Positions 5,630-62,267 of a DNA stretch of 64,000 bases are shown one piece after another (position 1 is the stretch's first letter; each line of letters starts with the position of its first letter). The notes below the pieces were generated by a model. The model was not told the DNA's origin. It did not search any database and was given only the letters and a program-made list of their open reading frames with translations. The DNA is taken from positions 3,100,001-3,164,000 of the forward strand of contig OY783208.1 of assembly GCA_963678705.1 (NCBI GenBank), read 5' to 3'. A program made the translations under genes and the position numbers. The stretch is from Panorpa germanica. Lineage: Eukaryota > Arthropoda > Insecta > Mecoptera > Panorpidae.

Positions 5630-8185
5630 ATGTTCGGGTTAACAATTAGCGTGTTGTTTGTTTTTGCTGTGTGCGTGTTCGCTCAGATAGGCTATCGTGA
5701 CTCGTATATTTGGTTGGATGATGCAAACAAATCGACATCTATCCCAGACGATTGGGACGTTAAAAACCCATCGATTGTTACAAACATTTATGTGAGTGAT
5801 GTACACGTTGAGAAGATAAACACCGGTGCTTTTGAGAACTTCACCAGCCTCGAAGAGCTGTGGCTAACAGGAAGAATAACCGCCATAGAGGACGATGCCT
5901 TCACTGGATTGGACAAATTATATAGCATAACACTAAATGGAGTTGGTATTAAAGACATCGGCCCAAAAGTGTTCCATAATTTAAATAGTTTAATTAGCTT
6001 AAAATTAGTAAAAAATGAAATTACGAAAATGCATCTAACTAACTTAACAGTGTTGACAGAACTGAATTTATCCCATAATAATATCACGGAATTAGGTGAT
6101 ATCGTTATTACAAACTAAGAAAACCTGAAATTTATTGACTTAAGAGAGAATAAAATCCGTGAATTAAAGAACGGGGCATTCAAAGGTTGTCCAGGTCTAA
6201 CTACTTTAAATTTAAATAAAAATCATATTACAGATATTGAAGGATATACCTTGGTACACGTGTCCAAGTTGGAAGTATTGTCCTTAAGTCATAACAATTT
6301 AACGAGAATAAATGATGATCAGTTCGACGAGTTGAAGAATTTAAAGCGATTAGAATTGTCAAATAATTTAATAAATGACATTCCTGATTTTAGTTTCATA
6401 AATCTTAATGCATTGACCAATTTAGATTTGTCACATAATAAGATTACATCTCTTGGTTATTTGTCGTTGTATGAACTGACTGAACTCAAGTTGGATCATA
6501 ACTCAATAACGAGTGTACCTGCAAACACATTTGTTTACACACGTAAATTAGAATATTTAGACTTAGGATTTAATTTAATAAAAGAATTTAATTTACCTAT
6601 TGAATTAGAAAGGTTAAGTCGTCTCAACTTAGAACATAACCAATTAGATTTTATTGAATTACCAGCCACAACTCAAATGAACATAGAGGTACTAGATTTA
6701 AGTGACAACAACTTCACTCACCTTGACGAATCGTTTCAACATTTAATTAACCTTCAACAATTGTCATTAAGGAAAAACAAAGTTAAAAGTTTTCCCCTGT
6801 GTATACCGGGTAGTTTAACAAATTTGGATTTATCTGACAATAAACTTCATGGGATAGCCCTGGATAAATTCTGTGACTCTGCAACTCAAGGGAAGCTGCA
6901 AATAGTAGATTTATCTTCTAATCAGTTTACATCTTACAACTTGACCTACACCAACAAATCTTTACAAGAAACGCAACCAGATTTGAACGAAATTGATTTA
7001 AGTCATAATTTATTGAATGCCGACTCATTGAAACAATTTCAAAATTCTGAGTTACGTCATATAACAGTTCTAAAAATTGAGCCGCAACAAAAAGTTGACG
7101 AAAATCAGAACACAATATGGATCGTGGTAATTTCGGCTGCACTGGCTGCTATTGGTGTATTTGCAGGTTAGAATTACAATCCTATTTATCTTAATTGTAA
7201 AATAGGCAACCCTCCTAACAATTAACGGTGGCCTACAATCTTAATTCAGAGAGAGTTCAGAAAGTGGGGATGACATGCGTTATATGTTCCAGGCCGATGT
7301 TTTCCTACTCTTAACATTCTCGTAGCTATTTTGTGCTATTTTAGTTATTTTTCTCTAGTGCACATCTTCCCTTCCCCCGTCCCTCCATAGAAAATATTCA
7401 GGGGCACCACATTTTGGCATTATTCCGGTCAGGAAAAGTTTCTCGCGAAATTTACATCGTAGCACGGTCCTGTAGGAACCACGTGTCTTGTAGGTCCACG
7501 TTACAGCATCCTGAATTAAATAACACCGACCTGGAACATAAAACGCTCCCTGTACATCCAGGTTAAAATGAATTTCAAATTTATTGAGTACAAAACATAA
7601 TTAAGTGTTCCTAACTCATAATAATAATAATTACTACATGGAAAACCTGTTCCTTTTCAGTAATTGGCGCCATATTCTTTGTGTGCAAACAGCGGAGAAG
7701 GACGAACCCGAATCCGAATGTCAACGATGCAATTATGCTAAATAACCTTTATGATGACGTCAGAGGCGCACCATTTTATCATTATCCCATTTTTCCAATT
7801 TACGACTCCTTGGGAACACCTCACATTTATCACTACCCCACGTTCCGTCCATGGTATGACGAAGTTCGCCCACAACCTATTTATTTATCGGTCCTGCCCG
7901 ATATTCCAGGTACGTAATTAGAGAACGCCCAACATGAATTGAACCTAATTATTGAAAAGTCAATTAGTTGCTTTTACAAGCACATTGTGTAACATTGTTA
8001 CTTAAAGCTTCAAATACAACAATTAAACAATAATTAAAAAATGTAAATACAAAGAAAGTAAGGTAGTTTTAATTGGGTATGTTCACTATTATAACTCGAT
8101 GTGTTTTTCAAATGTTTTAGGGCCCCAACCTTTGGAACAGGAGGACAACGGACCCGAAGAAAATATTTATGAGGAAATTGAATGA
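5630..8185 (+). pseudogene. LRR type I receptor A with one in-frame stop
   Basis: Three exons: 5630-7166, 7661-7909 and 8121-8185. Both introns are phase 1 with GT/AG ends, and the ATG at 5630 starts a clear signal peptide (MFGLTISVLFVFAVCVFA). The LRR ectodomain is one module of 23-24-residue LxxLxLxxN repeats with many N-glycosylation sites. It ends in an LCIPGS...KFC cysteine region, then a helix split by intron 1 (WIVVISAALAAIGVFA + VIGAIFFVC), KQRRR, and a tail with YDDV, YDSL, YDEV, YLSV and YEEI. TAA at 6116-6118 (codon 163) replaces the Leu codon TTA seen in C. The remaining 453 codons are open in the same frame, with no other lesion. It may be a pseudogene, a read-through gene, or a source of a 162-residue secreted fragment. 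AATAAA is at 8287. Confidence 0.8.
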
Positions 8186-8605
8186 ATATGGTTTTGTTCT
8201 GATGAAGATTTTTATTTTTAGTTAAGCTTAATTTATATTAAACTTGGATTAACTGACAGTAGTTTATATTATATTTATACGTTCTAAATAAAAATCTTAT
8301 TTGATGAAAAACATTTTTATAATTATTTTTAGTTCCTACTTTTTATTTGTAACTAGCTGACCCGGCAGACTTCGTACTGCCTCATCGATAAATAAAAGAC
8401 CTAATCTTTTGTATAAAATGATTTTAAAACAAACAAAATAATTATTAATGAAAAAGCATTTATTGAATAAAGCATGAAGTTTTATTATTATTTTCGATAC
8501 ATCATGTTGCTTACTTAGAAATCAGAGTTTTCCTGAAATACTGGCTATTTATAAGGTTTAAATTTGATATTCACAGACACACACTGTGAAAATACAGTCT
8601 GTTAA

Positions 8606-11600
8606 TTAATTTAAAGCTTTCTCATAAACTATATTTTTTGTTTTGTTTTGTGGTGCGTAAATAAACAAAGAAGACGGTTTTCCGACGCGCGAACACGCGA
8701 CGTATAATTGTCCATGCGCGAAACAGGGAAACTCCAAGTTGATTCCACAAACTTCTAAAGACTGTCCTTGCGATTTATTTATGGTCATCGCAAAGGCCAG
8801 ACGTACTGGAAATTGTAAGCGTTTAAAATCGAATGGTAAGTCCGTTGGAATCATCGGTATCCGCGGGATCAAGACATCCTCTCCTTTGTATTTTCCTTTT
8901 ATGATTGTCGCCTCAATGACGTTATTCATCAGTCTTTTCACAGCCAGTCTTGTTCCATTGCATAGCCGAGGTTGATTAATGTTACGCAGCATGATGACAA
9001 CTGATCCTACTTTTAACTGCAAATTGTGAGGTGGTAATCCAGGCAATTCCAGTGAATTTAAAAACTCAGTGGGATAGTTGATTACGTCATCCTGGTTCAT
9101 TACGGTGTCGACTGATTTGAAGGAAACCAACTGTCCTGGAAGAAAATTCTGAATGGTCGCATTAAGATCCTCTACATCATTATTTTTCGCTGCTAATATT
9201 GCTCGTTCACCCAGCCAATTATGGTTATTGAACTTTTGCGCTATATCTGGGAAAACTCGCTGAATAAGCTCCACTTTTGAGTCTGTGATGTGACAGAAAT
9301 CTGTAGGTAATGTGATGAATCCGGTCGAGGTGTCCACTGCAACTTTATTATTTCCAATGTCTAACAACTGCTTCGCAAACACATTAGCAGTTTCATCTTG
9401 TTGCAAAAATACTCGCATGTTAGTTGTTAAGTGGAGTGTCTTTACGTACTGCCACAAATTTGATGATTTTAGGCATGCATTTAGTTCATCAGCAACAGTT
9501 GATCGGGGAATAACTGGAAGAGTCTGACGAAAATCACCTGACAACAGAATCATGGCCCCACCGAAAATATTTTGGTTGTCACGAAGATCTTTCAACGTTC
9601 TGTCCAGTGCCTCCAGTGACCTCTTATGGGCCATTGTGCATTCATCCCAAACAATTAATTTGCATACCTGTAGGATCTTGGCCATTGCGCTATTTTTGGC
9701 GATGTTGCAAATTGGTGTTTCGGTGATTTGCATGTTTAGTGGTAATTTCAAGGCAGAATGTGCAGTTCGCCCGCCTTCGAGCAGAGTTGCAGCTATTCCA
9801 GATGAAGCCAACGCTAGAGCAACATCATTTCGCGATCTGATCCTCGCCAAAAGCAATGAAATTAAAAACGTTTTTCCGGTTCCTCCGGGAGCATCAAGGA
9901 AATAAATTCCACCAGATCCACTGTTCACAGCTTCTATCAAAGTGTCGTACGCAATTCTTTGTTGTTGATTTAATTGTGGAACATTTGTACGAACTGTTTC
10001 GGCCAATGCTTCAATGTCGTACTGATGTTCTCTTTGCAACTCGTGGTTTAATGCATCGTGCATATGACGATTGGGTGCTGTCATTCCCAAACACGACAAT
10101 ACTTTATTTGCCATAAATAAACACATATCTTCTATCATGATCAATGTGTCATTGTAAATTTCTTCAGTCATTTGTAGTGTAGGATTCAAAGTTTGACGGC
10201 GCACACGATACAAAACATCCTCAGACATGTCATCTCTATACTTAACCCACAAATCTTTTGGATTCGAGGGGAAACATGTCGATATGATAATCGCAAACAA
10301 TGTACGAATTTGATGCGGCGACGAAGATATTACGGAATCCTTGAGCGTATCATCCCAGTGCGAATCGTTCTCAAGTAAATGTAATAGTTGACATGCCTCA
10401 CGGTAAGTCGCACACAGCTGTCCATTAACTGTTCTCAGTTGTTTAAACGATGTCGGACCACGAACATTCACCAACAACAACCGCAAATAATAACATTCAT
10501 CGTTATTTGGATGTACTGTGTAGATGCGACCCAGAGCATCTGAAGCAAATACATTTGGATGTCCTTCAACTGGTGTTCCTTGTTTTCGACGCTGAAACGA
10601 TTTCGATGATGCGTTCCATGTGTAATAGCGTGGCATGTCAGCATACAGCAAAGTGCGAGCAAAATCATCAGTTTGACAAACTGTGAAGAAACTTGTTAAT
10701 GTTGTCGACGGTGGATGTGCCGCCCTGTCTGCCGCGTTAGATTCATTAAAATAAACTCGTTGACCATTTTCTAAATGGACTGCCAAATGGACTACTGTAG
10801 GGTGTCTTTCATGGATCGCAAATGAAAAGATACGCCAAATAGCTTCGTTGCTACTTACATAGCGACCCATCTGGTACTGTGATATTTCATCATTTGCATC
10901 GGTTACACCGAAGACAGCCATATCACTACCTTTATTAACATATTTACATATGTACTTTATCGACTTCACAGAATTACAATATTCCACATTGATGTGAGTC
11001 TCAAAAGCTTTGGACAATATTGGCGAGTATGGCACAATCCAACGATTGTCTACATCAACATTTTGTCCTCTTACCTTCACAACTACCGATCGCCCACTGT
11101 CCGCAACTGATCGCCGACGATACAATGGGTATCCATCATTTCCCGTTATGGTTTCAGCAAGCAGGTCTCTTGGGTATCGTTTGGAACACCTACCGTCGAC
11201 CATACAGGGTGAATTGTAGTTGAAATGTCCGCAAGGTCCATGTATCATGTGTTTGGTTACTACTGCATGCAATTTTGGGTCAACTATTTCATCTGGAATT
11301 TCAGCTGAAATTATAGAATCAATCTCATCTGGCCTTATTTTGTCCACTAACCAGACTAAAATGTGCGCATGTGGCAATCCACGCTTTTGCCATTCTACAG
11401 AGTACATCCAACAACGGACTCGGCCATACACACAATGCTTTATTAAAAAATTCATGAGAGATTTTAATTTTTGTTTAAAAACTCTGGCAGTTATGTCATG
11501 TCTATCAACTGGTGTTTGGCTATGTAGTAATTCCTTCTCGATTTCGGACCATTTTGGGTTACATGTGAATGTAACAAATAAATCTGGGCGGCCATAATGC

Positions 11601-13194
11601 TTAACATATGACATAGCATCCTGAGCATATTCATGCATGTGACGTGGGCTTCCTATATAAGTAGCTGGCAAAATTGTCATTCTTCCTACATTATTCACAT
11701 TGCCATCAGCATTTATAGCATCGCGGAGATGGATGTATTCCTCTGACCGTAGCCGTCGTTGGTTCAAACGGATGTATGTCAATCGTTCAGTCTCAATTTT
11801 GACATACATGTCAACTGCAAACTGATGAAAAAGTCGTTGACACATCAAAATATGATTTACTTCACCTTGACGGATCATGAGTCTGTATGAATAGAAATTC
11901 ATAGCACTAACTTTTTTGTTGGTTTCAGCACCTGCGATCAAAAATGATAAATGTTTAAATTGTTACTTAGATGTATTGAATTTAAAAATATTATTTAATC
12001 TTGTTCAATTCATTTACCTGTTACTTGATTTACCATTTTGATATTAAAATGGTATCCATCTTCCCCTTGCCAGAAGATCAAAGGATATTGTAGTGCATCA
12101 TAACTCCTGTGTGTTTCAGATACACGTTTTAACTCACTATTCGGACGATGAAGCACAATATCTCTAGATTGTAAATTTTCGCCCACAATGACAACAGCCA
12201 CTTCATCAATGGTAGGTGAATTGAACCTCCTTGTGTGTTCACCGGCAGGTGTTTTGTCAGCTCGAATAATAATATTATGGCTATCAGATGGCATCCGATC
12301 CAATGCTATTTTGAACATGTTTACTAAATTGTTATTATGATGAAGAAATATTTGTAATTGTTGGACAATGGTTCTCTTCACTGTTGGATTGTGAGCACAA
12401 CGATTATTAATTTCCGCATCTGAATTGCCCATAAAATAAATTTGTAAAAATTGATGATCTGCATCAGTTAGTGGTAACAGAGTTCCCAGTAAGTGATAAA
12501 TTTGTCCTTGAATCTGTAATTTTTAAAAATTTGTCCATTAATAATTTCCGATATATATATTTTAGTACAAACTTGAATAATATAAAAAAATATTCTTATA
12601 TAATACCTTGAAAGTGGGCATGAAATTGTCTTGTATAATATGTGTAGCACCGAATGATGTCATCTGGAAACAGTTGTTATATTTCTGAATGTTGGTCAAG
12701 AAGTGCTTAGAATCATTTCCAATCCCAGAAACCAAAGAGCGTAAAGGATCTGGTGGTGGGACCAATTGTGGCAATTTTACTTTGCCTTCAGCACAACATA
12801 ATCCAGTAGATTCACCAGTGTATTTTAACGCCTTACAATATTTACAAATTGTTTTCATTTCCCCAATTGTTACCGATTTGTCGGCACAATAATCAATTGC
12901 CGGATCATAGTGGAATGCAGCTCGTTCAAGAATCACAGGAGCACTGCGTCTGCGGATTCGCTCAATTTCATTATGTCTAGCTTGCTGTTGTTGTGTTTGA
13001 TGTGCACGAACTCGTTGCATTCTAAGCCTATCTCCTACATTGTCACTCACCAAAGAACGCAATTCTGACATAGCAATACGACTATTTTCTTGATCTGTCT
13101 GTCTCTGGTCATCAGTGCGGTTAGCACGTGAGGTAGCTCTTCGCACATTTGATTGACTACGACGACCTAAGTTAGGTCGTCTTCTCCTCGGCAT
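8606..13194 (-). CDS. Helitron Rep/helicase transposase, three exons, intact
   Basis: Exons (minus): 13194-12607, 12513-12018 and 11931-8606. The introns are 93 and 86 bp with GT/AG ends. The second splits a glycine codon, and both joins keep the frame, giving 1470 codons (1469 aa plus stop), the usual length for animal Helitron proteins. Exon 1 starts MPRRRRPNLGRR, a basic N-terminus also seen in the decayed copy at 37487. The HUH Rep domain has HAH at about residues 549-551 and the two tyrosines of YICKY at about 688 and 692. The PIF1-like helicase has Walker A GGTGKT at about 1044-1049, WDECT, GDFRQTLPV, INKSQGQS and CSRV. Rep nicks and joins the element ends while the helicase unwinds DNA. 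No stop or frameshift was found, so this copy could be active. Confidence 0.93.
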
Positions 13195-13530
13195 CGTAAA
13201 TTGTAATTAATCAAAGTGAGAAAATTTCCCGCTCATTTAGCAGTAAAGTGTCACTATCACAAAAAAGAACACATTACTTGGAATGTCACTATCACAAAGG
13301 ATCACCAAAGTAAAGAAAGTTCTCGCGCACGTAGCCACAAAGATAGATATAACGATAATATAATTTTTTCCGTGCTCTGAAATGCGACAGGATGGAATGA
13401 CATATCAGTTGGTTGTCAAATCTAATGTCAAATACATATTGAGATTGCGTTCAGAATTTAACTTAAGATTTATAATTTAATTTGTCTTTATTATTATTGA
13501 TTTATCTTTCGATTTCTATATAGTCTTATT

Positions 13531-13659
13531 AAAAAAATAATCGGACAGAGTAACAACTTAAGTTAGCTAAAATAAAAAAATAATCGGACACAGTAACAAC
13601 TTAAGTTAGCTAAAATAAAAAAATAATCGGACAGAGTAACAACTGAAGTTAGCTAAAAT
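13531..13659. repeat. Three 43-bp tandem repeats inside Helitron 2
   Basis: Three copies of a 43-bp unit starting AAAAAAATAATCGGACA begin at 13531, 13574 and 13617, with only one or two base differences. They lie between the transposase start and the 5' terminus, possibly in its promoter or replication-origin region. Confidence 0.9.
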
Positions 13660-14021
13660 TGTGTTTATTTATGTACTATGTATTTTGAGACTATGCAATT
13701 TTGTCGCGTTCGCGATTCACTTTCACTTTTGTTGAGTTTCAGAACGCGATATTAGGTCCTCCAACGCGCACGCGAATTTGAACTTTATGCAGCGGTAATA
13801 AATTACAAATTGACTCTCCATTTTATTTAGAAAACGTTTGTATGGGAAATAGAAAAATGCTGTTTTGAGGATTTTCCCGGCAATTATTCGAATTTTTCTC
13901 ACCTTTTAAACCTTCCCTAGACCTCCACGAATAATTCAAGACCAAGATAAGATAAATCCGTTCAGCCGTTCTCGAGTTTTAGCGAGACTAACGAACAGCA
14001 ATTGATTTTTATATATATAGA

Positions 14022-14310: not shown

Positions 14311-14530
14311 ACAGAGCGTTCTCATCTGACTTTAATCGTAACTTTATTCTGGTGTAAGTCACATTGAAATGTTAATTTTATTATTTGTCATTTTCCTTCC
14401 TGTGACAAATTTGTTCTATGCAAATGACTAAATCCAATTAATTATTATTTTGTGGTTTCAAATTCCCCGGCCTTGTTCCTCTTCGAGTCATCCTCTCAGG
14501 AAATATGAGGTTGTTAAAATGAATAAAATA

Positions 14531-14647: not shown

Positions 14648-14706
14648 TCTAAGAAGAAGAAGAAAAGTCAGTTTTATTGAATAGCTGTGATTTCATTGAA
14701 ATTAAA

Positions 14707-17261
14707 ATGTTCGGGTTAACAATTAGCGTGTTGTTTGTTTTTATTGTGTGTGTGAACACTCAGATAAGCATTTATGACTCAGTTCTTTCGTTCGATGATG
14801 CAAACAAATCAGCATCTATTCCAGCCGACTGGAACGTTAAACACCCAAGGATTGTGTCAAGAATTAATGTGATTAATGTACACGTTGAGAAGATAAACAC
14901 CGGTGCTTTTAAAAACTTCGTCAACCTCATACTGCTGCAGCTAACAGGAAGAATAACCGCCATTGAGGACAACGCCTTCACTGGATTGGACGAATTAATA
15001 AGCATAACATTAAGTGGAGTTGGAATTCAACACATCGGCCCAAAAGTGTTCCATAATTTAAATAGTTTAATTAGCTTAAAATTAGTAAAAAATGAAATTA
15101 CGAAAATGCATCTAACTAACTTAACAGTGTTGACAGAACTGAATTTATCCCATAATAATATCACGGAATTAGGTGATATCGTTATTACAAACTAAGAAAA
15201 CCTGAAATTTATTGACTTAAGAGAGAATAAAATCCGTGTAGTAAAGAACGGGGCATTCAAAGGTTGTCCAGGTCTAACTACTTTAAATTTAAATAAAAAT
15301 CATATTACAGATATTGAAGGATATACCTTGGTACACGTGTCCAAGTTGGAAGTATTGTCCTTAAGTCATAACAATTTAACGACATTAACAGAATATCAGT
15401 TCAGCAGGTTGGAGAATTTAAAACGATTAGATTTGTCAAATAATTTAATAAATAAAATTCCTGATTTTAGTTTCATAACTCTTAATGCATTGACTAGATT
15501 AGATTTGTCACATAACAAGATTACATCTATTGATACGTTGTGGTTGTATGAACTGACTGAACTCAGGTTGAATCATAACTCAATAACGACTTTACCTGAA
15601 TACATATTTCTTAACACACCTAAATTAGAATATTTAGACTTAGGATTTAATTTAATAAAAGAATTGTATTTATCTGATGAATTAGATAGGTTAAGACGTC
15701 TCAACTTAGAACACAACCAATTAGATTCTATAGAATTACCAGCCACAACTCAATTGAACATTGAGGTACTAGATTTAAGTTACAACAACTTGACTCACCT
15801 TGACGAATCGTTTCAACATTTAATTAACCTTCAACAATTGTCATTAAAGAAAAACAAAATTAAAAATTTTCCTCTGTGTATACCGGGTAGTTTAACAAAT
15901 TTGGATTTATCTGAGAATAAACTTCATGGGGTAGCACTGGATAAATTATGTTGCTCTGTGACTCAAGGGATGCTGCAAATAGTAGATTTATCTGCTAATC
16001 AGTTTATATCTTACAACTTGACCTACACCAACAAATCTTTACAAGAAACGCAACCAGACTTAAACGAAATTGATTTAAGTCATAATTTATTGAATGCCGA
16101 CACTGTAAAACAAATTCAAAATTCTGAGTTACGTCATATTGCACTTCTACAAATTGAGCCGCAACTAAAAGTTGACGAAAAGCAGAACACAACATGGATC
16201 GTTGCAACTTCGGCTGCACTGGCTGCTGTTGGTGTATTTGCAGGTTAGAATTACAATCCTATTTATCTTAATTGTAGAATAGGTAACCCTCCTAACAATT
16301 AACAGTGGCCTACAATCTTAATTCAGAGAGAGTTCAGAAAGTGGGGATGACATGCGTTTTATGTTCCAGGCCGATGTTTTTCTACTCTTAACATTCTCGT
16401 AGCTATTTTGTGCTATTTTAGTTATTTTTCTCTAGTGCACATCTTCCCTTCCCCCGTCCCTCCATAGAAAATATTCAGGGGCACCACATTTTGGCATTAT
16501 TCCGGTCAGGAAAAGTTTCTCGCGAAATTTACATCGTAGCACGGTCCTGTAGGAACCACGTGTCCTATAGGTCCACGTTACAGCATCCTGAATTAAATAA
16601 CACCGACCTGGAACATAAAACGCTCCCTGCACATCCAGGTTAAAATGAATTTCAAATTTATTGAGTACAAAACATAATTAAGTGTTCCTAACTCATAATA
16701 TTAATAATTACTACATGGAAAACCTGTTCCTTTCAGTAATTGGCGCCATATTGGTTGTGTGCAAACAACGGAGAAGGACGAACCCGAATCCGAATGTCAA
16801 CGATGCAATTATGCTAAATAACCTTTATGATGACGTCAGAGGCGCACCATTTTATCATTATCCCATTTTTCCAATTTACGACTCCTTGGGAACACCTCAC
16901 ATTTATCACTACCCCACGTTCCGTCCATGGTATGACGAAGTTCGCCCACAACCTATCTATTTATCGGTCCTGCCCGATATTCCAGGTACGTAATTAGAGA
17001 ACGCCCAACGTGAAGTGAACCTAATTATTGAAAAGTCAATTAGTTGCTTTTACAAGCACATTGTGTAACATTGTTACTTAAAGCTTCAAATACAACAATT
17101 AAACAATAATTAAAAAATGCAAATACAAAGAAAGTAAGGTAGTTTTAATTGGGTATGTTCACTATTATAACTCGATGTGTTTTTCGAATGTTTTAGGGCC
17201 CCAACCTTTGGAACAGAAGGACAACGGACTCGAAGAAAATATTTATGAGGAAATTGAATGA
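14707..17261 (+). pseudogene. LRR type I receptor B with the same in-frame stop as A
   Basis: Exons 14707-16243, 16737-16985 and 17197-17261, with the same phases and lengths as gene A. It has a signal peptide (MFGLTISVLFVFIVCV), one LRR module, a helix ending VIGAILVVC, KQRRR, and a tail with YDDV, YDSL, YDEV, YLSV and YEEI. TAA at 15193-15195 is codon 163, exactly as in A. The rest of the frame is open despite many amino-acid differences from A in both ectodomain halves. About 345 bp around the stop (15038-15382) is nearly identical to A, while flanking coding DNA is more diverged, which suggests gene conversion. AATAAA is at 17366. Pseudogene, read-through and short secreted product all remain possible. 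Confidence 0.8.
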
Positions 17262-31048: not shown

Positions 31049-31978
31049 CTAAATCCGTAGTTTCCAGCCTGGTAGTCTGACCTCTGCGTGTTTGTTAATA
31101 TGTCTAAATGCTCTATCAGGTATTACATAAAAATCATTATTAGTCAAATCCAGCATCTTAATATTCTCCAATCCAGCGAAAGAATCATGATTAATAAATG
31201 TCAAGTTGTTATACTGTAAAAATAACATTTCCAGCAAAGGAAGGTTAATAAACATATTCCCTGGTACATTGGTAAGCCTGTTTTGATGGATAAACAGAAA
31301 TACCAAGTTATCCAACTTGTGAAACGCTTTTGGATGTATACTCGTTATTCTATTATCATTAATATTTAGTTTCTTCAGTTTCAGCAAACCATCGAATGTG
31401 TGCTCTTCGATTTTCGTCAATTTATTAGCAGAAAGATCCAATTTCGTCAGGTTGGTGAGTTGTCTAAAAGACCCGTCGACAATCTCTGTGATTTCGTTGG
31501 TGGCTAAGAAGATGTCATCTATCTGGGGGATGCCACTAAACATATCAATAGTAATGCGTTCTATTTTATTACTTGGCAACGAAATGTAACTCAACTTGGT
31601 CAATCCTTTAAAAGCGAAGGAATTCACTGTCCTTAAATTCGTATCATGGATATAAATAGACTCCAGGAGCACCGATATATCGAAAGCGCGTTCGTGGATG
31701 CTACCCAGGGGGCATTCTGCGATTGATAATTTCTTTATATTCTTAGTCTAAGAGAATTTATGCGTAGTAAGGTTTTGTTCTTTAGCGTATTTATCCACAC
31801 AAACTATTTTCAGCTCCTTGATTCCATCGAGGGAGGTGTCATCATTGGGGAGGTGGTGCAGATTGTCACAGGCTAAGGTGTTCTTCACTACGTAACCTTC
31901 TTTACGGCAGAATCTTGAATCGAACGCACTAATATTGTAAAATAACGCGAAAACTAACAAACTAAATATTAAATTCAT
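31049..31978 (-). pseudogene. Secreted LRR protein F with one in-frame TAG
   Basis: A single-exon minus-strand frame of 309 codons. The ATG at 31978 opens a signal peptide (MNLIFSLLVFALFYNISAF), then a cysteine-containing N-cap and about ten LRRs (for example LTKLDLSANKLTKIEEHTFDGL). No membrane helix is present. TAG at 31750-31748 (codon 77) interrupts it, and the frame is open on both sides. The neighbouring gene at 40810 aligns straight through this position with no intron, so the stop is a real lesion or a read-through site. A TATATAAG on the same strand (32041-32034) sits properly upstream. An ATG 39 nt further up is also open, but the TATA spacing and signal peptide favour 31978. Confidence 0.75.
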
Positions 31979-40530: not shown

Positions 40531-40809
40531 ATAAACATATAAGAATATAAGTAAACAATAGCTTTGACGTTTAATTCTGCATCTCTTTTGCACTTCTCTT
40601 GTTTAACTTTGATGGCAAATGGTAGTGAGGAAGAAGGTGATTATTTCAATCGTTAATAACTTCTATAATTGGATATTTGAGATTATGACAAACAACTTTA
40701 TCAATATATATTAAGTACTGTTTGAGAAGCACTGGCAACACTATCGGCCAATATTTCGACGTAAATAGATAACTGTATTTGTGTCAACAGTTCACATTCA
40801 AACCGCATC

Positions 40810-41781
40810 ATGTTTTTGAAGTTGTATTTAATTTTATGTGCGATTTTCTCAACTGTTTTTCCACAAGAAGAGTATTGTGCTTTAACCATCAACGAAGCAA
40901 AAACCTTAACATGTAGTGGGTTCAGAGAATTCCCTAAGCAACGAATAGAAGAAGAAGACATCGAAGAATTCAACATCCAGTGTCAAAATGAACAAGATTT
41001 CAACAAAAATTTAACATCTCTTGAATACGTGTTCAAGAAATGTTGCAAGAGATTTAGGATCTTCAATTGTGATTTATTTTCCATAGAAAATAACACGTTT
41101 TACGGGTCAACGAGCTTGGAGGAGTTAACGGTGTTCGACAGTGGTCTTCAAATTCTTCAGAAACAGGCTTTTAATAAGGTAGATGGATTGAAATCAATAC
41201 TAATTCACAAAAACCAGATTAAACATATCCTGGAGGGTGATTTCGCGGGGTTGCAATCGTTGGAAACTTTATCTTTGTTTGATAATTTAATAGAAGATGT
41301 CGAAAACTTCGCTTTTGAAGATTTAAACTCTCTTATTCGCTTGGAACTGCAAGGCAATAAAATCAGTGAGTTGCGTGAGGATATATTCCACGGGTTGTAC
41401 AGTCTCCAAAGCTTAGATTTATCCAGGAACTCCCTAAAGGAAGTGCGCAGGGACGTGTTTCATCATCTAAAGGAGCTGAAGGATCTATGGTTGAAATATA
41501 ACAAGATAAAAACGATCGAAGGGAGTACTTTTACGCCAAATAAGAAGTTGAGGATGATAGATTTAAGTTTTAATAATATTGATAGTGTTGAGAGTGACAC
41601 CTTTCGTGAATTGTCTGAACTGAGTGACGTTTATTTGATGAGGAACCCACTGAACTATATTGCGGAAGATGCTTTTGTTAATGCCAACAGCAAGAAGTTG
41701 TGTCTCGCTTGGATTCATGGACTCAAACCGAGAACGATCGGCGGATGGGACAAATATTTCGGCGGATGTAAGTTCATTTAA
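40810..41781 (+). CDS. Secreted LRR protein G, intact
   Basis: Single exon, 323 aa. The ATG at 40810 starts a signal peptide (MFLKLYLILCAIFSTVFPQ). A cysteine-rich N-cap (including CC at about residues 78-79) is followed by about nine LRRs (LxxLxLxxNxI pattern) and a short C-terminal region with WIHGLKPRT and a late cysteine. There is no membrane helix or GPI-like tail, so it is probably extracellular. It is related to the broken gene F at 31049, with the same N-cap layout. AATAAA at 41880 lies about 100 bp past the stop. It could bind or assist membrane LRR receptors, as some insect secreted LRR proteins do, but nothing in the sequence shows this. Function unknown. Confidence 0.85.
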   Translation: MFLKLYLILCAIFSTVFPQEEYCALTINEAKTLTCSGFREFPKQRIEEEDIEEFNIQCQNEQDFNKNLTSLEYVFKKCCKRFRIFNCDLFSIENNTFYGSTSLEELTVFDSGLQILQKQAFNKVDGLKSILIHKNQIKHILEGDFAGLQSLETLSLFDNLIEDVENFAFEDLNSLIRLELQGNKISELREDIFHGLYSLQSLDLSRNSLKEVRRDVFHHLKELKDLWLKYNKIKTIEGSTFTPNKKLRMIDLSFNNIDSVESDTFRELSELSDVYLMRNPLNYIAEDAFVNANSKKLCLAWIHGLKPRTIGGWDKYFGGCKFI

Positions 41782-53186: not shown

Positions 53187-55190
53187 CAGGGTGTCCCAAA
53201 ATTCAACGATAAGCCGGCACCAGAAGATGGTCCTGCTCATGACTACTCAAGAAAAGAAGAAATAAAAAATTTATCTCATTTTGTTTATTAATTAGAAAAA
53301 AAATAATTTTTTTTTCGAAAATTGAAACATTTTAAGATGTTTTTAACTACCATGACCACAATTTATTTCTGATTTTTTTTTTGAATCGGCAACCTAAATA
53401 GCACTGCTATCCATCACAACCATTAAAACTCCCAGAATGCTAGTAGTTTTTACACAAAAATCAATCGAAATTACATTTTTCCCTAAATTTTTTAAAGATT
53501 TTTACTTTCAGTCCACTTTAACTCATCGTGGTGTAAAAAAAAAGTATGAACATTACTATGGCAAGTTTTTTTTAAAATTGGCGCAACTCTTCAGGATTCC
53601 AAAATAGTATAATACTCCAGGAAAACTAGCAATAAAAAAAAATTATGCATACTGTTTCTAAAAAAGAACCATATTTCATAAATTGTTGTTGTTGATAGTT
53701 ATCATTTTTACAATACCCAAAAGAGGTTTTTTATTGTTGAATGAATTAAAACAAATGATACAAACATTTTTTCATTTATTTTATAAATTTTATAGTTGAT
53801 TTACATTATAGTAAATGTTCAAAATGTTTGCCACCAGCATAAATACAGGCACGACATCGCCTTAAAAGAAATCTTTTTCATATCATATCGTTTACCTTTC
53901 ATATGATGTGCAACCTGAGTATTTTTTTGTCGAAGCTCGTCCAATGTTGCTACGGGTTTTGAATAAACTCTTTCTTTAAGACAACCCCAATAGAAGAAGT
54001 CCAGAGGTTTAGATCGGGTGAATAAGGTGGCCATAATATTGGACCAAATCGTCCAATCCCACGCCCTGGATACTCTTCGTTTAGGTATTCTCGCACAGGG
54101 CGAGCATAGTGAGCTGAGCAACCATCATTTTGTAAATCACTTATGGGCACGTCTTTTAATAATTCTGACAAATCATTTTGTAAAAAGTTCAAATAATTAT
54201 TGCCATCTAATATCCTTGTACCTCAAAGAGCCCAAGCACTTTTCCATTTAATATCCCGTCCATAGGTTAATCTTAAATTGATATTGGGATTTGTCTAGTC
54301 TCATTAGGTGCGGATTTTCATTGCTCCAGCTATGTAGGTTATAAAGATTTAAATAACCATCTATCTTGCAGGTTGTTTCATCCGACTATAGAATTTTACC
54401 TAAGAATTGGGGATCTTCCCTAAGTTTTTGCAGCATAACACGGCAAAATGCAACCCGTTGTGGATATTATCCAATGGTAATAACGTCCGAAAAAAAAAAC
54501 AATCTTTTTTAAGGCGGTGTTGTGGCTGTATTAATGCCAGTGGGAAACAATTTGAACATTTACTGTAATGTAAATAAGGCAATAAATTTATAAAGTGAAT
54601 TAAAATTGTTTGTACCATTTGTTTTAATTCATTCAACAATAAAAAACCTATTTTGGGTATTGTAAAAGTGATAACTATCAACATCAACAATTTATGAAAT
54701 TTGGTTCTTGTTTAGAAATAGTATGCATAATTTTTTTTTATTGCTAGTTTTCCTGGAGTATTATACCATTTTGGAATCCTGAAGAGTTGCGCCAATTTTT
54801 AAAAAAACTTGCCATAGTAGTGTTCATACTTTTTTTTACACCACGATGAGTTAAAGTGGACTGAAAGTAAAAATCTTTAAAAATTTTAGGGAAAAAAGTA
54901 ATTTCGATTGACTTTTGTGTAAAAACTACTAGCATTCTGGGAGTTTTAATGGTTGTGATGGATAGCAGTGCTATTTAGGTTGCCGATACAAAAAAAAAAT
55001 CAGAAATATTTGAAAAATTGTGGTCATGGTAGTTAAAAACATCTTAAGGTGTTTTAATTTTCGAAAAAAAAATTTTTTTTTTTCTAATTCCTAAACAAAA
55101 TGAGATAATTTTTTTTTCTTCTTTTCTTGTGTAGTCATGAGCAGGACCATCTTCTGGTGCCGGCTTATCGTTGAATTTTGGGACACCCTG
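53187..55190. mobile_element. Mariner-like fold-back element with about 640-bp inverted repeats
   Basis: Starts CAGGGTGTCCCAAAATTCAA and ends in the reverse complement, with TA on both sides (53185-53186 and 55191-55192). The inverted repeats extend inward to about 53830 and 54535, far longer than normal mariner ends. The roughly 700-bp centre holds part of a transposase on the minus strand. The equivalent place in unit E (about 63385-63400) lacks the element, so insertion followed the D/E duplication or was lost in E. Confidence 0.85.
53825..54435 (-). pseudogene. Mariner-like transposase fragment
   Basis: Minus-strand pieces in several frames: WSDET (first Asp) near 54390, NDGCSAHYARPVREYLN (second Asp), then WPPYSPDLN and DFFYWG (third Asp region). 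These are the DDD landmarks of mariner transposases. The N-terminal DNA-binding half is missing because the inverted repeat begins there, and stops and frameshifts occur. Confidence 0.78.
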
Positions 55191-55199
55191 TATATAGCT

Positions 55200-55496
55200 T
55201 ATAAAGCTATCAACCTAATGATATATAAAAATTAATATAAAAATCATAATTAAGAAAAAAAGAAGGGATTGAAATATATTTATTTTATTAAAGTAATTAA
55301 TTTTCTTTTTCTTGATGGTTTTTCATTTACATAAATTATTTTACATTATATTGGTTGATATCCACACTATCCTTTTATGGTACAAATATTATAATAACTA
55401 TGGCAGCAATCTAATTTGTCTTCCCAGAGCAATTCTCTTATTTCCAATACTTTTATTGATTGATTTACTTGTCTATTAGTATTTTTCGTTTACACT
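55200..55496. repeat. D/E segmental-duplication flank
   Basis: Matches 63390-63675 after unit E (for example TTGGTTGATATCCACACTAT). No gene. Confidence 0.6.
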
Positions 55497-56370
55497 CAGT
55501 GGCGTAGCTAGGCAACCAAGGGCCCCGGTGCAAAAAGAAATCCGGGCCCCTAACTAAACTGTTTAGGTTTTTCAAGTCAGATATAATTATATATATGTAA
55601 ATACTTTAAAGGTACAAAGCTATTAGTTTACCATCAGCTCTTTATCATGCACTGCATGACACAGCAAAACTACTTACTACATGTATGTGTGTGTGTGTCT
55701 TGTGTGAGCTTTAGTGCTCCCCTAGGTGAAGAGTTTAGGAACGTATACTTGGATTTATATTATTGGCATTAATCAATAAAACGAAGTAAATCAAAAGATG
55801 TATGTATGTATGTATGTAAAACATTTATTGTACATAAAACATTAATAGTATATTACACACCGAGGGAAGAAAACTGACCCCTATCCAAAGGCAAGGGTGG
55901 CAAACACGCGGACTGGAATATCCTACTTTCTTCACTAGCGGGTATACTATTTTGCACCAAAGTATGTCACTCCTTCTATCTTATCCAGATCAATTATTAT
56001 GATGTTTTAATAGTAGACCAAAGGAAATATACATCTGCCTTTTCTGTATATTGTTAGCGATATTACGCTCTAAGACTCTAAGTACAATCCTGCAGCTACT
56101 TTTGTTCCAACTTAATCTCAACATAAACAACTCTAGAATGCGTACCTCTGCCTGAGAGAATTACGTAATAGACTTAGACCCTTGCCTGGTCCATGTTTCC
56201 CCCCTCCCGTTATTGTTTATGTTTTTGTTATAAAAGTTTTGTAAGCATTGTCGGGAATAACTATTTACTAAGAGTATTACATCACTGTGAAACCGTTAAA
56301 ATATAAATATAAGTTATAAAAGTCCGAGGGCCCCCTGAGCTTGGGGGCCCCGGTGCACTGCACCGACTCG
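55497..56370. mobile_element. hAT-related element, right end degraded
   Basis: Begins CAGTGGCGTAGCTAGGCAAC like the MITE at 35703, and near the right end has GGGGCCCCGGTGCACTGCAC, matching that element's subterminal region. The expected terminal CTAGCTACGCCACTG is missing, so the right terminus is lost. A TATG microsatellite lies at about 55798-55816. No transposase is seen. It is duplicated after unit E from 63676. Confidence 0.65.
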
Positions 56371-56881
56371 CCCCGTCATACTTTTAAAAGCTCAGCTGTA
56401 TAACGCTACGACACATTAAAAAAGCATTGTCTCACTCTTATTACTATAATATATATGGGAGTGAAAAGGATAAAAAATACACTACTTGTCTACTATATTA
56501 AGTATAGACTGAAGTATGTCTGTGCTTATTTTGTAAACAAATTTAAATTTATCAAATTTATTTATTGTAATAGAACGAACTGTCAAATTTATTGTCAAAT
56601 ATTATAAGCAAATAAGGTGTGGAAATGTTTAGATCTTTAAAAAGAAAAGCATTGCGATATTTTAAAAATGATGGACCAACATTATTGCCGTTGACATTTC
56701 CAATATTAGTAAAGTTTAACATAAATATTGGATTATTATCCAAATATTACTTAAAGCTGCAATAGAACTACAATTCCGGATTGGCTTGAACCCGAATTAG
56801 TCTGGATAATTGGAGCCCTACAATACAAACATTTTCTGTACGTGTAGAGGACAACAGAAGCATGTAGTATAGGAGAAAAAT
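56371..56881. other. Intergenic before the IS630-like remnant
   Basis: No supported gene. It may include the decayed 5' end of the neighbouring transposon. Confidence 0.35.
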
Positions 56882-57580
56882 CAGTGTGAGTGTCAAAAAG
56901 CGTGTAGTTGATGCTGGTTCAGGAGTACCCATTTCTCCACAGAAAACACGTGTCAAAGCTCAGTCGGAAGATGAATTTGTTAAAGATGCCGTAATAAGCG
57001 ATTAATTTATGAGAAGAATTTTCAATGTAAGAATATATTTAGATGTAGGCACTTATTTTGAAGTATTAATTATTTGCAAACTAATTTCAGTGGAGAATGC
57101 GTCACTAATATTGTCAATAAAGTGTCAGATATTGGATTACCATGGCATGAATGCGGAATTGTTCAAGAAATGGCTCAAAGAACGACTTATTCCCAATTTA
57201 CAAGAGCTATTCTTAATCATCATGGATAACGCTACAGACATTCCAAATAATATTGGAACCCCTATCTAATACAACATGGAAAAAAACGATTTGGTTATTT
57301 ATCTACAAAAAAATAATATCTCAACCACACCAGAAATGCTAAAAACCGAACTTTCGCGTCCTGCCAAGGAAAACCGTCTATTAAAAGTATATGAAATTCA
57401 CAGCATCGCAAAGGAACATGGTCACAAAGTATGCGTCTTCCACCTTATCACTGTAATTTCAATGCTATTGACTTAGTACAGGCCAACTGTAAAGAATTTT
57501 ATATCAAAAACATTGATACAGATCAACTGAAAAATGAAAATGTTTTTCCGATGCGTGTATTTTAGAAATTGCATAAAGAC
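56882..57580 (+). pseudogene. Decayed IS630/Tc1-like DDE transposase
   Basis: Plus-strand fragments read in order like an insect IS630-family transposase: a basic KTRVKAQSEDEF segment ending in a stop at 57003, LDYHGMNAELFKKWL, IIMDNAT (second catalytic Asp), TWKKNDLVIYLQKNNIS and, after a frameshift, RLPPYHCNFNAIDLV, where the usual Glu reads Asp. At least two stops or frameshifts separate the pieces. Terminal repeats were not found. Confidence 0.72.
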
Positions 57581-58200
57581 TGTGGAAAACAAGATTTTGC
57601 AATGGTGGGATATTATAGAAAAGCACGGCCGAAGATTTTTTTCTTATACAGATAGGAGATCCTGACAATGATATGAAGAGTAATTAAAGAGGACCTATTA
57701 ATAATTGTTATTTAACAGCGTTGTAGCACTGATGACTTCTTAGAATGTTGGCAGTATCTATAGTGTCGTCACCTCACATATGTGTGCCACACCGCTGCTT
57801 CATAAATTTTATTACTGTAAGCGCATAGTAAATTTAATTGTTGAAACAACCAAACCGAACACGAAGACACAAGCATAATTGCTCTGAGCTATTGTGCCAT
57901 AATTATTAATTGTGCATATTACATTATAAAACAAATATATAAAGAAACATGAAAAAAGAATTAATTTTTAACTCAGATGTTTGTTATTTACAAAAGTAAC
58001 AGGCATTACAAATATTTCAATATGAATCATTTCTAAACATACTCATACATATATTTTTTAAAATTATTTCACGATAGCTCTCATAGATGACGCTGTTATA
58101 AAATATATTTTGCTGTATAATAAGTGAAATACGTTCATCAAATCTTAGTCCTAGTTCCTAGTTCCTAGCCATACGTCATCGCCGATCTATCGTAACTTTG
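57581..58200. other. Intergenic, no gene
   Basis: AT-rich sequence between the transposase remnant and the upstream repeat of unit E; nothing recognised. Confidence 0.4.
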
Positions 58201-58204
58201 ACTA

Positions 58205-58455
58205 TATCAAAGATTTATGAGCTGTACGTTAATGTCACATGCATTTGGAATGTGTACAACGTTAAGTCCCTTTAATAATTAAAGAGACAAAAAGACTTTT
58301 TTAATTGTTAATATCTCTTAACATATATGGAGTTATTAACAAATAATTGGACATTTGAGGTTCTAGTAACCCTAGTATATTGATAAAGATCAATATGTAG
58401 TACACTTTTATAGAAATTAAGTCATAGGACACAAGCCCATTGTCATTGGCTCGTT
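58205..58455 (+). repeat. Dispersed repeat upstream of E, shared with D
   Basis: Matches 47950-48200. Together with the following TTCTAGACGTAATCG stretch it defines the left part of the D/E segmental duplication. Confidence 0.6.
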
Positions 58456-58740
58456 ACAATATATTTTCCAAGAGCTGTTCTAGACGTAATCGTTAGTGCG
58501 GTCATTCCCTTTCTGGAAAATCACACATTGTAACTTTAATTTGGTGTAAGTCACATTGAAATGTTAATTTTATTATTTGTCATTATCTTTCCTGTGACAA
58601 ATTTGTTCATGCAAATGACTAAATCCAATTAATTAATATTTTGTGGTTTCAAATTCCCCGGGCTTCGTTTTTTTTTCGAGTCTTTCTCTCAGGAAATTTG
58701 AGGTTGTTAAAAATGAACGGATGCAAAATTGAATAAAATA

Positions 58741-58870
58741 ATTAACCAAACAAAATGCGTCAGTGATAACCCGATGGAACCCAATGACAAAACGTTGCAG
58801 AAAATAAGAAGTGGAATCAGTTAAAAGAGCCTCGCGTGTCTAAGCAGCATCTATTAAGACTACAGTGTTT
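58741..58870 (+). promoter_or_regulatory. Conserved proximal promoter block, unit E
   Basis: Same block as D, including GTTAAAAGAGCCTCGCG and CATCTATTAAGACTACAGTG. A kappaB-like AAATTCCCC is at 58651. Confidence 0.45.
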
Positions 58871-58945
58871 AGAGTGATTGAAAGTGTGTTAAAGAAGAAG
58901 AATAATAGTTTACTTTATAGAATAGTTTTTGGTTTCTAAATCAAA

Positions 58946-61900
58946 ATGAGCGGTTTAAGGATTTGTCTGCTTATTGCATTTCTTGCGATTGTTTTTGTTC
59001 GGGCAGTCTTTCGTGGCACATTTGTTTCGTTTGATGATGCAAACATATTAAGATCTATTCCAGGCGACTGGGATGTTGAAGACCCGTCGATTGTGATAAA
59101 CATTGATGTGAGTAGTGTAAACGTTGACAAGATAAACACCGGTGCTTTTAAAGATTTTGTCAATGTCAAAGAGCTGGAGCTAACAGGGAGAATAGCCGCC
59201 ATAGAGGATAACGCCTTCGCTGGATTGGACAAATTAGAACGCATAACACTAAATGAAGTTGGAATTCAACACATCGGCCCAAAAGTGTTCTATAATTTAA
59301 AAAGTTTGACGTTGTTAGACTTGGCAAGCAATGAACTTATGGAAATAATTCTAACTAACTTAACAATGTTGACAAAACTGGATTTATCTCAAAATAATAT
59401 CACAGAAATAAGTAATGACACTTTTGTAAACTTAGAGAACCTGGAATCTATTAACTTAAGTGAGAATAAAATCCGTGCATTGAAGAACGGGTCGTTCAAC
59501 GGTTGTCCGAATCTTGCTACTATAAATTTAAATAAAAATCAGATTGCAGATATTGAACCAAATGCTTTTATACACCTGCCTAAGTTGGAAATATTGTACT
59601 TAAGTCATAACAATTTAACGACATTAACAGTGCTTCAGTTGCCGAATTTAAAGGAATTAAATTTGCCACATAACAGGATCACATTTCTTGAAAAGGACAC
59701 TTTATTGCAGTTGCCTGAATTGACTGACATCGTGTTGCATCATAACTTAATAACGAGAGTAGATAAAGATTATTTTGTTAACACACCTAAATTAGAATAT
59801 TTAGACTTAGATTTTAATTCATTAAAAGAATTTAATTTACCTGATAAATTAGAAAAGTTAAGTTATGTCTCTTTACAACACAATAAATTACAGTCTATAG
59901 AGTTATCAGCCGAAACTCAAATGAACTTAGAGGTATTAGATTTAAGTGACAACAACTTGACTCACCTGGACGAATCGTTTCAACATTTAATTAACCTTCA
60001 AGACTTGTATTTAAGCAATAATAAACTCAAAAGTTTTCCTCTGTGTATACCGGGTAGTTTAACAGGTTTGGTGTTATTTCGCAATGATCTTCATGAGATA
60101 GCGCTAAATAAATTCTGTGGCTCTGCAACTCAAGAGATGCTGCGAAATGTTTATTTGTCTGATAACGCAATTACAGAATTAAATAACAACAGTTTTGGAA
60201 ACTTGCCAGAGCTGGTTTATATTGGGATGAGTAATAATAAAATCCGTTCAATAAAGTCTGGCACATTCTCTGGTTGTTCCAACCTAACTATATTGTATTT
60301 GTATGACAATCAGCTGGCAGATATCGAACCAGACGCATTTAGGGACCTCCATAAGTTGGAACAGTTAATTTTAAGGAACAACAATTTAAAGACGATAACA
60401 TCAAACCATTTCAAGGGGTTGACGAGTTTAGAGAGATTAGATTTATCATTTAACAAATTCACATCCCTTGATCCGCTTCTTTTAAACAATTTGACGGAAT
60501 TGACTCACATTTGGTACCACAACAACTCAATAACGAGTTTACCAGAAAGATTCTTCAACAACACGCCTAAATTAATACAAATGGACTTTGAATTTAATTT
60601 GTTAAAAGAAGTTAATTTGTACGATAACTTAGTCCATCTGACATATGTCTACTTACAACACAACCAAATAGAGTCTATCAAATTATCACAAGCAACTCAG
60701 TATAACATCAGGGTAATAAATTTACAAGACAACAACTTGACTCACCTGGACGAATCGTTTCAACATTTAATTAAACTTCAGTATTTGTTTTTAAGCAACA
60801 ATAAACTTAAAAGTTTTCTTCAGTGTTTCCCAGAAAGCTTAACTAATTTGGATTTATCTCACAATGAACTTCATGGGATAACACTGGATAAATTTTGTGG
60901 TTCTGTGACTCAAGGAAAGCTGCAATCAGTTTATTTATCTTCTAATCATTTTACATCTTATAATTTGACGAAAACCAAGAAATCTTTAGAAAAAACGCAA
61001 CCAGAATTAAGGATTATTGATTTAAGTTTTAATTTCTTGAATGCCGACACTGTAAAACAAATTCAAACTTCTAATCTGCGTCATATAGCACTTCAAAAAT
61101 TTGAACCGCAGCGAAAAGATGACGTCAAAGTCAGTCCTAATGAGAACATAAACGGGGAGGGGAACACTACATGGATCGTGGTAACTTCGGCTGCACTGGT
61201 TGTTGCTGTATTTGCAGGTTAGAATTACAATCCTATTTATCTTAATTGTAGAACAGGCAACCCTCCTAACAATTAACGGTGGCCTACAATGTTAATTCAG
61301 AGAGAGTTCAGAAAGTGGGGATGATATGCGTTTTATGTTCCAGGCCGATGTTTTCCTACTCTTAACATTCTCGTAGCTATTTTGTGCTATTTTAGTTATT
61401 TTTCTCTGATGCACATCTTCCCTTCCCCCGTACCCCCATAGTAAATATTCAGGGGCACCAAATTTTGACATTATTCCGTTTAGGAAAAGTTTCTCGCGAA
61501 ATTTACATCGCAGCACGGTCCTGTAGAAACCACGTGTCCTGCAGGTCCACGTTACAGCTTTCTTAATTAAATAACACCGACCTGAAACATAAAACGCACC
61601 CTGTACATCCAGAGTAAAATGAATTACAAATTTATTGAGTACAAAACATAATTAAGTGTTCCTAACTCACAATAATGATATTAACTACATGGAAAACCTG
61701 TTCCTTTTTAGTAATTGCCGCCATGTTGGTTGTGTGCAAACAACGGAGAACGACGAACCAGAACCCGAACTCGAATGTCAACGATGCAGTTATGTTAGAT
61801 GAACTCTATGATGATGTTGGACCTGCGAGGGCTAATGATGATGACAGAGCCAACCTAGATTATGATTATCCCAGGTTCCCAATTTACGACTCCTTGGGAA

Positions 61901-62267
61901 GACCTCACATTTATCACTACCCCACGTTCCGTCCATGGTATGACGAAGTTCGCCCACAACCTGTCTATTTATCGGTCCTGCCTGATATTCCAGGTACGTA
62001 ATTAGAGAACGCCCAACGTGAATTGAACCTAATTATTGAAAAGTCAATTAGTTGCTTTTACAAGCACATTGTGTAACTTTGTTACCTAAAGCTTCAAATA
62101 CAATAATTAAACAATAATTAAAAAATGTAAATACAAAGAAAGTAAGGTAGTTTTAATTGGGTATGTTCACTATTAACTCGATGTGTTTTTTCAATGTTTT
62201 AGGGCCCCAACAATTGGAACAACAGGACAACGGGCCAGAAGAGGATATTTATGAGGAAATTGACTGA
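58946..62267 (+). CDS. LRR type I receptor E with tyrosine-rich tail, intact
   Basis: Exons 58946-61217, 61712-61993 and 62203-62267 encode 872 aa. The signal peptide is MSGLRICLLIAFLAIVFVRA. Two LRR modules have the same landmarks as D. In module 2 the usual FPLCIPGSLT reads FLQCFPESLT. The helix is TWIVVTSAALVVAVFA joined to VIAAMLVVC, followed by KQRRT. The tail has YDDV, the Asp-rich insertion, YDSL, YDEV, YLSV and terminal DIYEEID. Exon 2 is 6 nt longer than in D, and its acceptor is TTTTTAG rather than the TTTCAG of the other units. AATAAA is at 62372. Divergence from D is spread through the LRR surface positions, while tail and introns stay close. Confidence 0.9.

Follow-up and report, generated by a model that had tools for sequence, protein, structure and literature searches.

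A large, mosaic family of candidate leucine-rich repeat receptors with a conserved tyrosine-motif tail in Panorpa germanica

Insect immune recognition is usually explained by a limited number of germline receptors together with Dscam splicing. Draper, an insect membrane receptor, has an ectodomain of the EMI/NIM/EGF type. The vertebrate KIR/LILR, fish NITR, and Hydractinia Alr receptors form clustered families with fast-evolving Ig-like ectodomains, segment exchange, and conserved tails carrying immunoreceptor tyrosine-based inhibitory or activation motifs (ITIM or ITAM). In plant hvNLRs and LRR-RLPs, selection acts on the concave face of the leucine-rich repeats (LRRs). The subject here is a family of LRR genes in the genome of Panorpa germanica (464 Mb, 249 contigs), five members of which (A to E) span positions 5630 to 62267 of the window, a stretch of 64,000 nucleotides corresponding to 3100001–3164000 of contig OY783208.1 (C5, 24.8 Mb). 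On balance, these genes probably represent a large, germline-diversified family of single-pass surface recognition receptors, in which a ligand face under selection is joined to a shared tail for signaling through Src-type kinases and SH2 domains.

Toll and the Toll-like receptors (TLRs) share with the family a leader, a long LRR horseshoe, and a single membrane pass, and TLR3 and TLR13 are among both its sequence and its fold neighbors. In contrast to Toll, the Panorpa proteins lack cysteine-rich LRR caps, carry a tyrosine-motif tail, and belong to a very large family. Membership among the TLRs is rejected for want of a TIR domain in exon 1 of D and A or in exon 2 of D, A, and C, exon 3 encoding only about 21 residues. 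The mosquito TM-LRIM and LRIM1-APL1 proteins are also insect secretory or membrane LRR proteins with variable repeat numbers; the published account gives the LRIMs 6–14 LRRs, C-C and double-cysteine patterns, coiled coils or a transmembrane segment, and no known signaling domain (PMC3020904). The Panorpa family differs in its 14–28 strand motifs, its conserved tyrosine tail, and the absence of the LRIM cysteine pattern. Among its 16 open exon 1 products (handles with L denote loci fetched from elsewhere in the assembly), 15 have 15–28 strand motifs and L040 has 14; an adjacent cysteine pair is absent from 15 (L047 has one at 186–187), and none follows the last LRR motifs. LRIM membership is rejected on both grounds. 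Each of these products has two to seven cysteines, which are scattered.

Other precedents resemble the family in the wiring of the tail or in the mode of diversification. Draper is described with an ITAM and an NPxY in its cytoplasmic tail, and the Drosophila Src42A-Draper-Shark chain offers an insect precedent for coupling a Src kinase to receptor tyrosines (PMC4503800). The likeness lies in an insect membrane receptor with cytoplasmic tyrosines for a Src-family kinase, a role that is proposed only for the Panorpa proteins, which differ in having an LRR ectodomain, no consensus ITAM, and an NPxY in just 1 of 56 tails. Arthropod Dscam, for which published work reports a hypervariable ectodomain and predicted SH2/ITAM tail motifs (PMC6851185, PMC13428168), is the nearest arthropod precedent found for that combination. 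However, Dscam is a single, alternatively spliced gene that encodes Ig-type domains, whereas the Panorpa genes form a germline multigene LRR family. Compared by description only, KIR/LILR, NITR, and Alr are alike in clustering, tyrosine tails, and segment exchange but unlike in their Ig-like ectodomains and ITIM/ITAM tails. Plant hvNLRs, treated in PMC8226289 as large diversified LRR receptor families, and LRR-RLPs are alike in the diversification of an LRR binding surface but differ in plant origin and in their signaling modules. Searches of the open-license PMC literature returned no description of a family of this kind.

The five genes, rebuilt exon by exon, lie in one orientation and have three exons each (Table 1), with coding lengths, final stop included, of 617 (A and B), 838 (C), 871 (D), and 873 (E) codons. 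In every one of them, the two introns have GT-AG ends and interrupt the frame in phase 1, exon 1 ending GCAG/GTTAGA and exon 2 starting AG/TAATTG, and the layout is constant in A–E and in most fetched loci. Exon 1 encodes a hydrophobic leader and the LRR ectodomain and runs to the middle of a hydrophobic segment, which exon 2 completes before a KQRR sequence and the tail, and exon 3 adds a short end that closes on YEEI plus one residue; the leader, taken as a signal peptide, and the membrane segment were assigned by eye. The ectodomains of C–E contain an internal LRR duplication with a spacing of 699–780 nucleotides. Searches of D exon 1 and of both parts of A exon 1 against Pfam return LRR models only (LRR_8 in D exon 1, E 1.9e-98, 13 stretches), no Pfam family is hit at E<=1 by exon 2 of D, A, or C, and the tail profile likewise hits no PDB sequence at E<=1. 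The preliminary description, which had proposed five LRR paralogs of this architecture here, with the tail motifs YDDV, YDSL (YDYV in C), YDEV, YLSV, and YEEI, and with no TIR, kinase, or death domain, is thus borne out, the last point as far as the first exon of D and A and the second exon of D, A, and C are concerned. It did not include the TAA common to A and B, the internal duplication in C–E, the size of the family, or the variability of the concave LRR face.

The family extends far beyond the window. The tail exon of D gives 174 matches in the assembly, and the 150 matches listed merge into at least 141 places, a count that takes in broken copies, exact or near-exact duplicates, and possibly unmerged haplotypes; 135 of these places lie on C5 between 1.53 and 18.41 Mb. 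For analysis, 72 loci (L001–L072) were fetched, which together with the five window genes make 77 entries and about 73 distinct genes; all have a tail match by selection, having been fetched by the tail or beside it. Over 3.3 kb, L018 and L019 are identical and L003 and L004 differ once. A copy of D and E lies about 30 kb downstream of the window genes (C5:3179–3192 kb), with one difference in 3273 bases around the tail for D and 98.4% identity over 3.3 kb for E, and may be either a recent duplication or an unmerged haplotype. At 9.1–9.3 and 10.2–10.4 Mb of C5, many tail matches are paired at a distance of about 1.1 Mb, a pattern suggestive of either a megabase duplication or an unmerged haplotype. 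A virus or polydnavirus origin was considered and dropped, a scan of viral contigs with the tail profile yielding 59 pattern matches and no relative confirmed by tblastn. The assembly itself has 145 matches to 7tm_6, the odorant receptor family of insects, for which none of 14 control genomes gives a match, as expected of insect DNA.

The tail, about 80–100 residues long and common to the family, carries five YxxPhi sites (YDDV, YD[S/Y/T]L/V, YDEV, YL[S/A]V, and YEEI) and two YxYP repeats. Of the 77 entries, 63 retain the tail in a complete open frame, which together with the 174 matches speaks against a chance resemblance, and from these 56 distinct tails were analyzed; the 14 entries dropped have stops (three) or lack splice or exon 3 anchors or run into the locus end. 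The first site is YDDV in 51 tails (YDDI 2, YDDF 1, YNDV 1, NDDV 1) and the third YDEV in 48 (YDDV 4, YVEV 2, YDVV 2), while the fourth is divided between YLSV (28) and YLAV (22), with YLTV in 4 and YLVV and CLAV in one each. The second is the most varied (YDSL 26, YDYV 11, YDSV 7, YDTV 5, YDDV 2, YDFL 1, deleted in 4), and the fifth is YEEI in all but one tail, which has YEES. Since the exon 3 finder favored YEEI, exon 3 was relocated by DNA homology in 74 of the 77 entries, D and E being entered twice (also as L003 and L026); YEEI was found in 70, YEES in one, and neither in three (YGEI in L059, YEKL in L063, and L054, whose alignment stops short of the exon). In the ratio of nonsynonymous to synonymous differences (pN/pS), the tyrosines and the +1 positions both stand at 0.03, compared with 0.45 at +2, 0.25 at +3, 0.44 in the other tail columns, and 0.52 in the helix and basic part. 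A tail that is not conserved among relatives had been put forward as a refutation; among paralogs of the same genome, the 56 distinct tails keep the motifs.

A separate tail subtype (L065, L067, L071, and L072) lacks the second YxxPhi site and the YxYP that follows it, so that LLYDDV or PLYDDV is fused to VQPxYLAV. This natural deletion could help to show which of the tyrosines are important.

YEEI is the classic ligand sequence of Src-family SH2 domains, and it is present in nearly every tail. The residue before the tyrosine agrees with the preference of Src kinases at Y1 (L in 56/56), Y2 and Y4 (I/V in 50/56 and 53/56), and Y5 (I in 41/56); at Y3, W precedes in 37. The residue at −2 is mostly E, P, P, P, and N at Y1–Y5. 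The switch motif of immunoreceptors (ITSM, TxYxx[VI]) occurs in 0/56 tails. A hemITAM is a single acidic-flanked YxxL bound by SH2 domains of the Syk type; the C-terminal EEN-I-YEEI has acidic flanks but ends in I.

The same tail could instead belong to endocytic or sorting receptors that take up ligand without phosphotyrosine signaling, the five YxxPhi sites being ligands for the mu subunits of AP-2 or AP-1. Nearly every motif closes with V, L, or I, as AP-2 requires, and five YxxV/L/I sites occur in 46 tails, four in 8, and six in 2. However, AP-2 reads the tyrosine and +3, whereas the constraint at +1 equals that on the tyrosine itself and exceeds that at +3, and the acidic +1 and +2 residues, like YEEI, suit SH2 domains. 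Signaling by tyrosine phosphorylation is therefore favored, because +1 is as constrained as the tyrosine, and plain sorting appears unlikely. The preliminary description had inferred a receptor family unlike Toll that either signals by tyrosine phosphorylation or is endocytosed; the receptor-like family with its conserved five-motif tail stands, and of the two functions the first is now preferred on the pattern of constraint.

The ectodomain evolves in the opposite manner on one of its faces. AlphaFold, run on D exon 1 with three sequences, predicts a horseshoe (mean predicted local distance difference test score 78.1, predicted template modeling score 0.72) with strands on the motif positions; in fold it comes closest to TLR13, TLR9, SHOC2, and TLR3, at modest template modeling scores, with Drosophila Toll ranking lower, and IGFALS, LGR4, TLR3, and TLR13 are the neighbors by PDB sequence. 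Concave positions were defined as 2, 3, 5, 7, and 8 of the strand motif LxxLxLxxNxL, of which D has 28. Between D and E, 82 of 140 concave positions differ, compared with 61 of 509 other LRR positions (Fisher p 4.9e-28). By position, 12, 22, 18, 16, and 14 of the 28 motifs differ at 2, 3, 5, 7, and 8, while positions 1, 4, 6, 9, 10, and 11 differ in 0–5 and the highest non-concave value is 9/28, at −4. The nonsynonymous rate (dN) over the pooled synonymous rate (dS) is 1.87 for the concave face, 0.21 for the core, and 0.29 for the convex side; concave values for C/D and C/E are 1.85 and 1.44. The concave excess of dN over dS in D/E has p 3.4e-5 with pooled dS and 0.007 with concave dS alone, calculated from rounded counts. 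Among 26 non-independent pairs from the 16 genes with an open exon 1 (C, D, E, and 13 other loci), compared where ectodomain lengths lie within 12 residues, the concave ratio exceeds the rest in 23 and is above 1 in 18, the rest being above 1 in 2. As judged from these substitution ratios, the concave LRR face is under diversifying selection in the long-ectodomain class.

The genes are also mosaics. Among the entries compared, the nearest relative shifts along each of the eight genes tested. From nucleotide 1275 on, E is 96–100% like L020 (C5:1.60 Mb), while before this point L041, D, C, and others are nearest at 87–97%; D has 17 different nearest relatives across 29 segments, the downstream copies of D and E not being counted. 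From this change of nearest relative along the genes, duplication joined by conversion or unequal exchange is deduced. Introns are on average 93–94% alike between copies. Over 1540 pairs of the 56 tails, divergence is 0.063 in intron 2 and 0.186 at the fourfold sites of the tail exons (about 30–40 sites per window pair), fourfold divergence being higher in 1462 of these non-independent pairs and lower in 77, A/B included; intron 1, taken at lengths of 480–540 nucleotides only, gives 0.073 over 528 pairs. On average, introns such as 7167–7660 and 7910–8120 thus show about one third of the divergence seen at fourfold sites in the adjoining tail exons. Constraint on the introns, exchange limited to exons, or a mutational cause could each produce this pattern, and lower divergence in introns than in exons is similarly seen in fast-evolving toxin and MHC genes.

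In the window, C, D, and E alone are open, A and B sharing an in-frame TAA at codon 163. In 42 aligned entries (L001 and L043 overlap each other), this codon is TAA in A and B alone and TTA or TTG in the other 40. A and B differ twice over the three 100-nucleotide bins from 6000, compared with up to 22 per 100 in other ectodomain bins; because the tract around it is nearly identical, either conversion or copying during a recent duplication probably accounts for the presence of the stop in both genes. A and B are best regarded as broken or truncated. It is quite improbable that they are functional through readthrough of the TAA or as short secreted LRR fragments: their equal coding length and the lack of any other stop among 136 ectodomain substitutions, where about 5.9 would be expected, would suit this, but the TAA is confined to the two genes, it sits in a tract that may reflect recent spread by conversion, and no concave excess is left 3′ of it. 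Readthrough is accordingly not favored.

Table 1. Exons of the five paralogs and the tract shared by A and B (window coordinates).
Feature	Start	End	Strand	Content
A exon 1	5630	7166	+	Leader, LRRs, first part of membrane segment; in-frame TAA at 6116–6118
A exon 2	7661	7909	+	Remainder of membrane segment, KQRR, YDDV, YDSL, YDEV, YLSV
A exon 3	8121	8185	+	YEEI-E-stop at end
B exon 1	14707	16243	+	In-frame TAA at 15193–15195, as in A
B exon 2	16737	16985	+	Tail
B exon 3	17197	17261	+	YEEI
C exon 1	25327	27529	+	Open; long LRR ectodomain with internal duplication
C exon 2	27869	28114	+	YDDV, YDYV, YDEV, YLSV
C exon 3	28326	28390	+	YEEI
D exon 1	48599	50870	+	Open; 28 LRR strand motifs; predicted LRR horseshoe
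D exon 2	51364	51639	+	Tail
D exon 3	51849	51913	+	YEEI
E exon 1	58946	61217	+	Open; 28 LRR strand motifs
E exon 2	61712	61993	+	Tail
E exon 3	62203	62267	+	YEEI
Near-identical A/B tract	6000	6299	+	Contains the stop common to A and B; result of conversion or of a recent duplication

Other features of the window include a Helitron frame with Helitron_like_N and PIF1 helicase domains at 8606–11962 (−), between A and B. Stretches of 1.8 and 1.2 kb around it recur inverted at 1–3052 with 100% identity, and because of this identity the Helitron is probably very young. Two further LRR frames, 40765–41781 (+) and 31049–31747 (−), are of different sequence by eye, and the former looks secreted.

Much of the conservation might be attributed to a recently amplified, largely decaying family in which recency and gene conversion, and not function, preserve the tail. 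This is consistent with the similarity of the introns, the stop common to A and B, the exact or near-exact duplicates, and the fate of exon 1 in the 40 loci L033–L072: by a simple method it is complete and open in 13 (L051, one of these, has a stop in the tail), several of the rest have stops, and the others were left unassigned by the method, some of them with long open frames. Recency does not account for contrasts within the same genes, such as a pN/pS of 0.03 on tyrosines beside 0.44 on their neighbors, or concave against other LRR positions, and an open exon 1 is kept in C, D, E, and 13 other loci; we regard such decay as a poor candidate. A role in recognition outside immunity (i.e., gamete recognition or allorecognition, or contact chemosensation) would follow the same molecular logic and is a somewhat unlikely but stronger competitor. 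It agrees with the placement of 135 of 141 places, among the matches listed, on a single contig, with the mosaic diversification, and with upstream regions in which kappaB sites are not enriched, while the TLR-like horseshoe points, weakly, to immunity. A conserved block precedes the genes (at positions of about 5440–5560 for A, and at matching places for the others), aligned in 17 of 18 genes and unclear in L067. In the 18 upstream regions, GATA (13, 14.5 expected) and STAT (4, 5.5 expected) sites are likewise not enriched.

Several observations weigh against a signaling receptor family with a selected ligand face. Constraint among paralogs was measured within one genome only, the fetched sample is skewed to D-like tails, and the tails that have diverged furthest, at about 47% identity (C2:13200807 and C5:8713729 are examples), fall outside it. 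Several family copies are broken. The ITAM pattern (YxxL/I x6-12 YxxL/I) occurs in 0/56 tails, the Y3–Y4 gap being 5 residues in 55/56 with V at +3, as the earlier caution that the YDEV-YLSV spacing is short for an ITAM had anticipated, and the ITIM pattern ([SIVL]xYxx[LIV]) in only 5/56; by consensus, the tails are therefore rejected as members of the ITAM, ITIM, and ITSM classes. The dependence among the ectodomain pairs is compounded by mosaicism, which disturbs dN/dS; in the short-ectodomain class (22 pairs) the concave contrast is small, with many pairs at 0.8–1.1, and the flanking positions (−4, −1, and 15–17) vary about as much as the concave ones. After the stop in A/B, the concave excess is lost (0.97 concave, 1.96 convex). 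Upstream kappaB sites occur in 1 of 18 regions, with 1.7 expected by shuffling, so that nothing points to induction by Toll or Imd and an NF-kappaB-driven promoter is rejected.

Under the favored reading of a surface recognition family, the predicted single-pass topology would place the LRR horseshoe outside the cell and the tyrosine tail inside. The concave face of the horseshoe would bind ligands that differ between paralogs, and ligand-induced clustering may make the tail accessible to a Src-family kinase, after which SH2 proteins could dock on the phosphorylated YxxPhi tyrosines. The analysis demonstrates the architecture, the copy number, the constraint on the tyrosines and +1 residues, the diversification of the concave face in the long class, and the mosaicism; membrane topology, ligand binding, phosphorylation, and SH2 docking are steps that we infer, and an immune role is a guess.

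A bolder proposal, which we put forward tentatively and hold to be possible but less probable than the receptor family itself, is that some insects have a germline system resembling antigen receptors, in which a chromosome-scale LRR array, segment exchange, a hypervariable concave face, and a shared Src/SH2-type tail would feed many specificities into one phosphotyrosine pathway, as in KIR/NITR or Alr, independently of Toll. If this is true, a large recognition repertoire coupled to phosphotyrosine signaling has arisen in an insect, a receptor system of a kind unexpected in insects. The family would also offer naturally occurring LRR binders whose faces vary, and it makes testable whether such repertoires may act in self/non-self discrimination or in the recognition of pathogens when no somatic rearrangement takes place.

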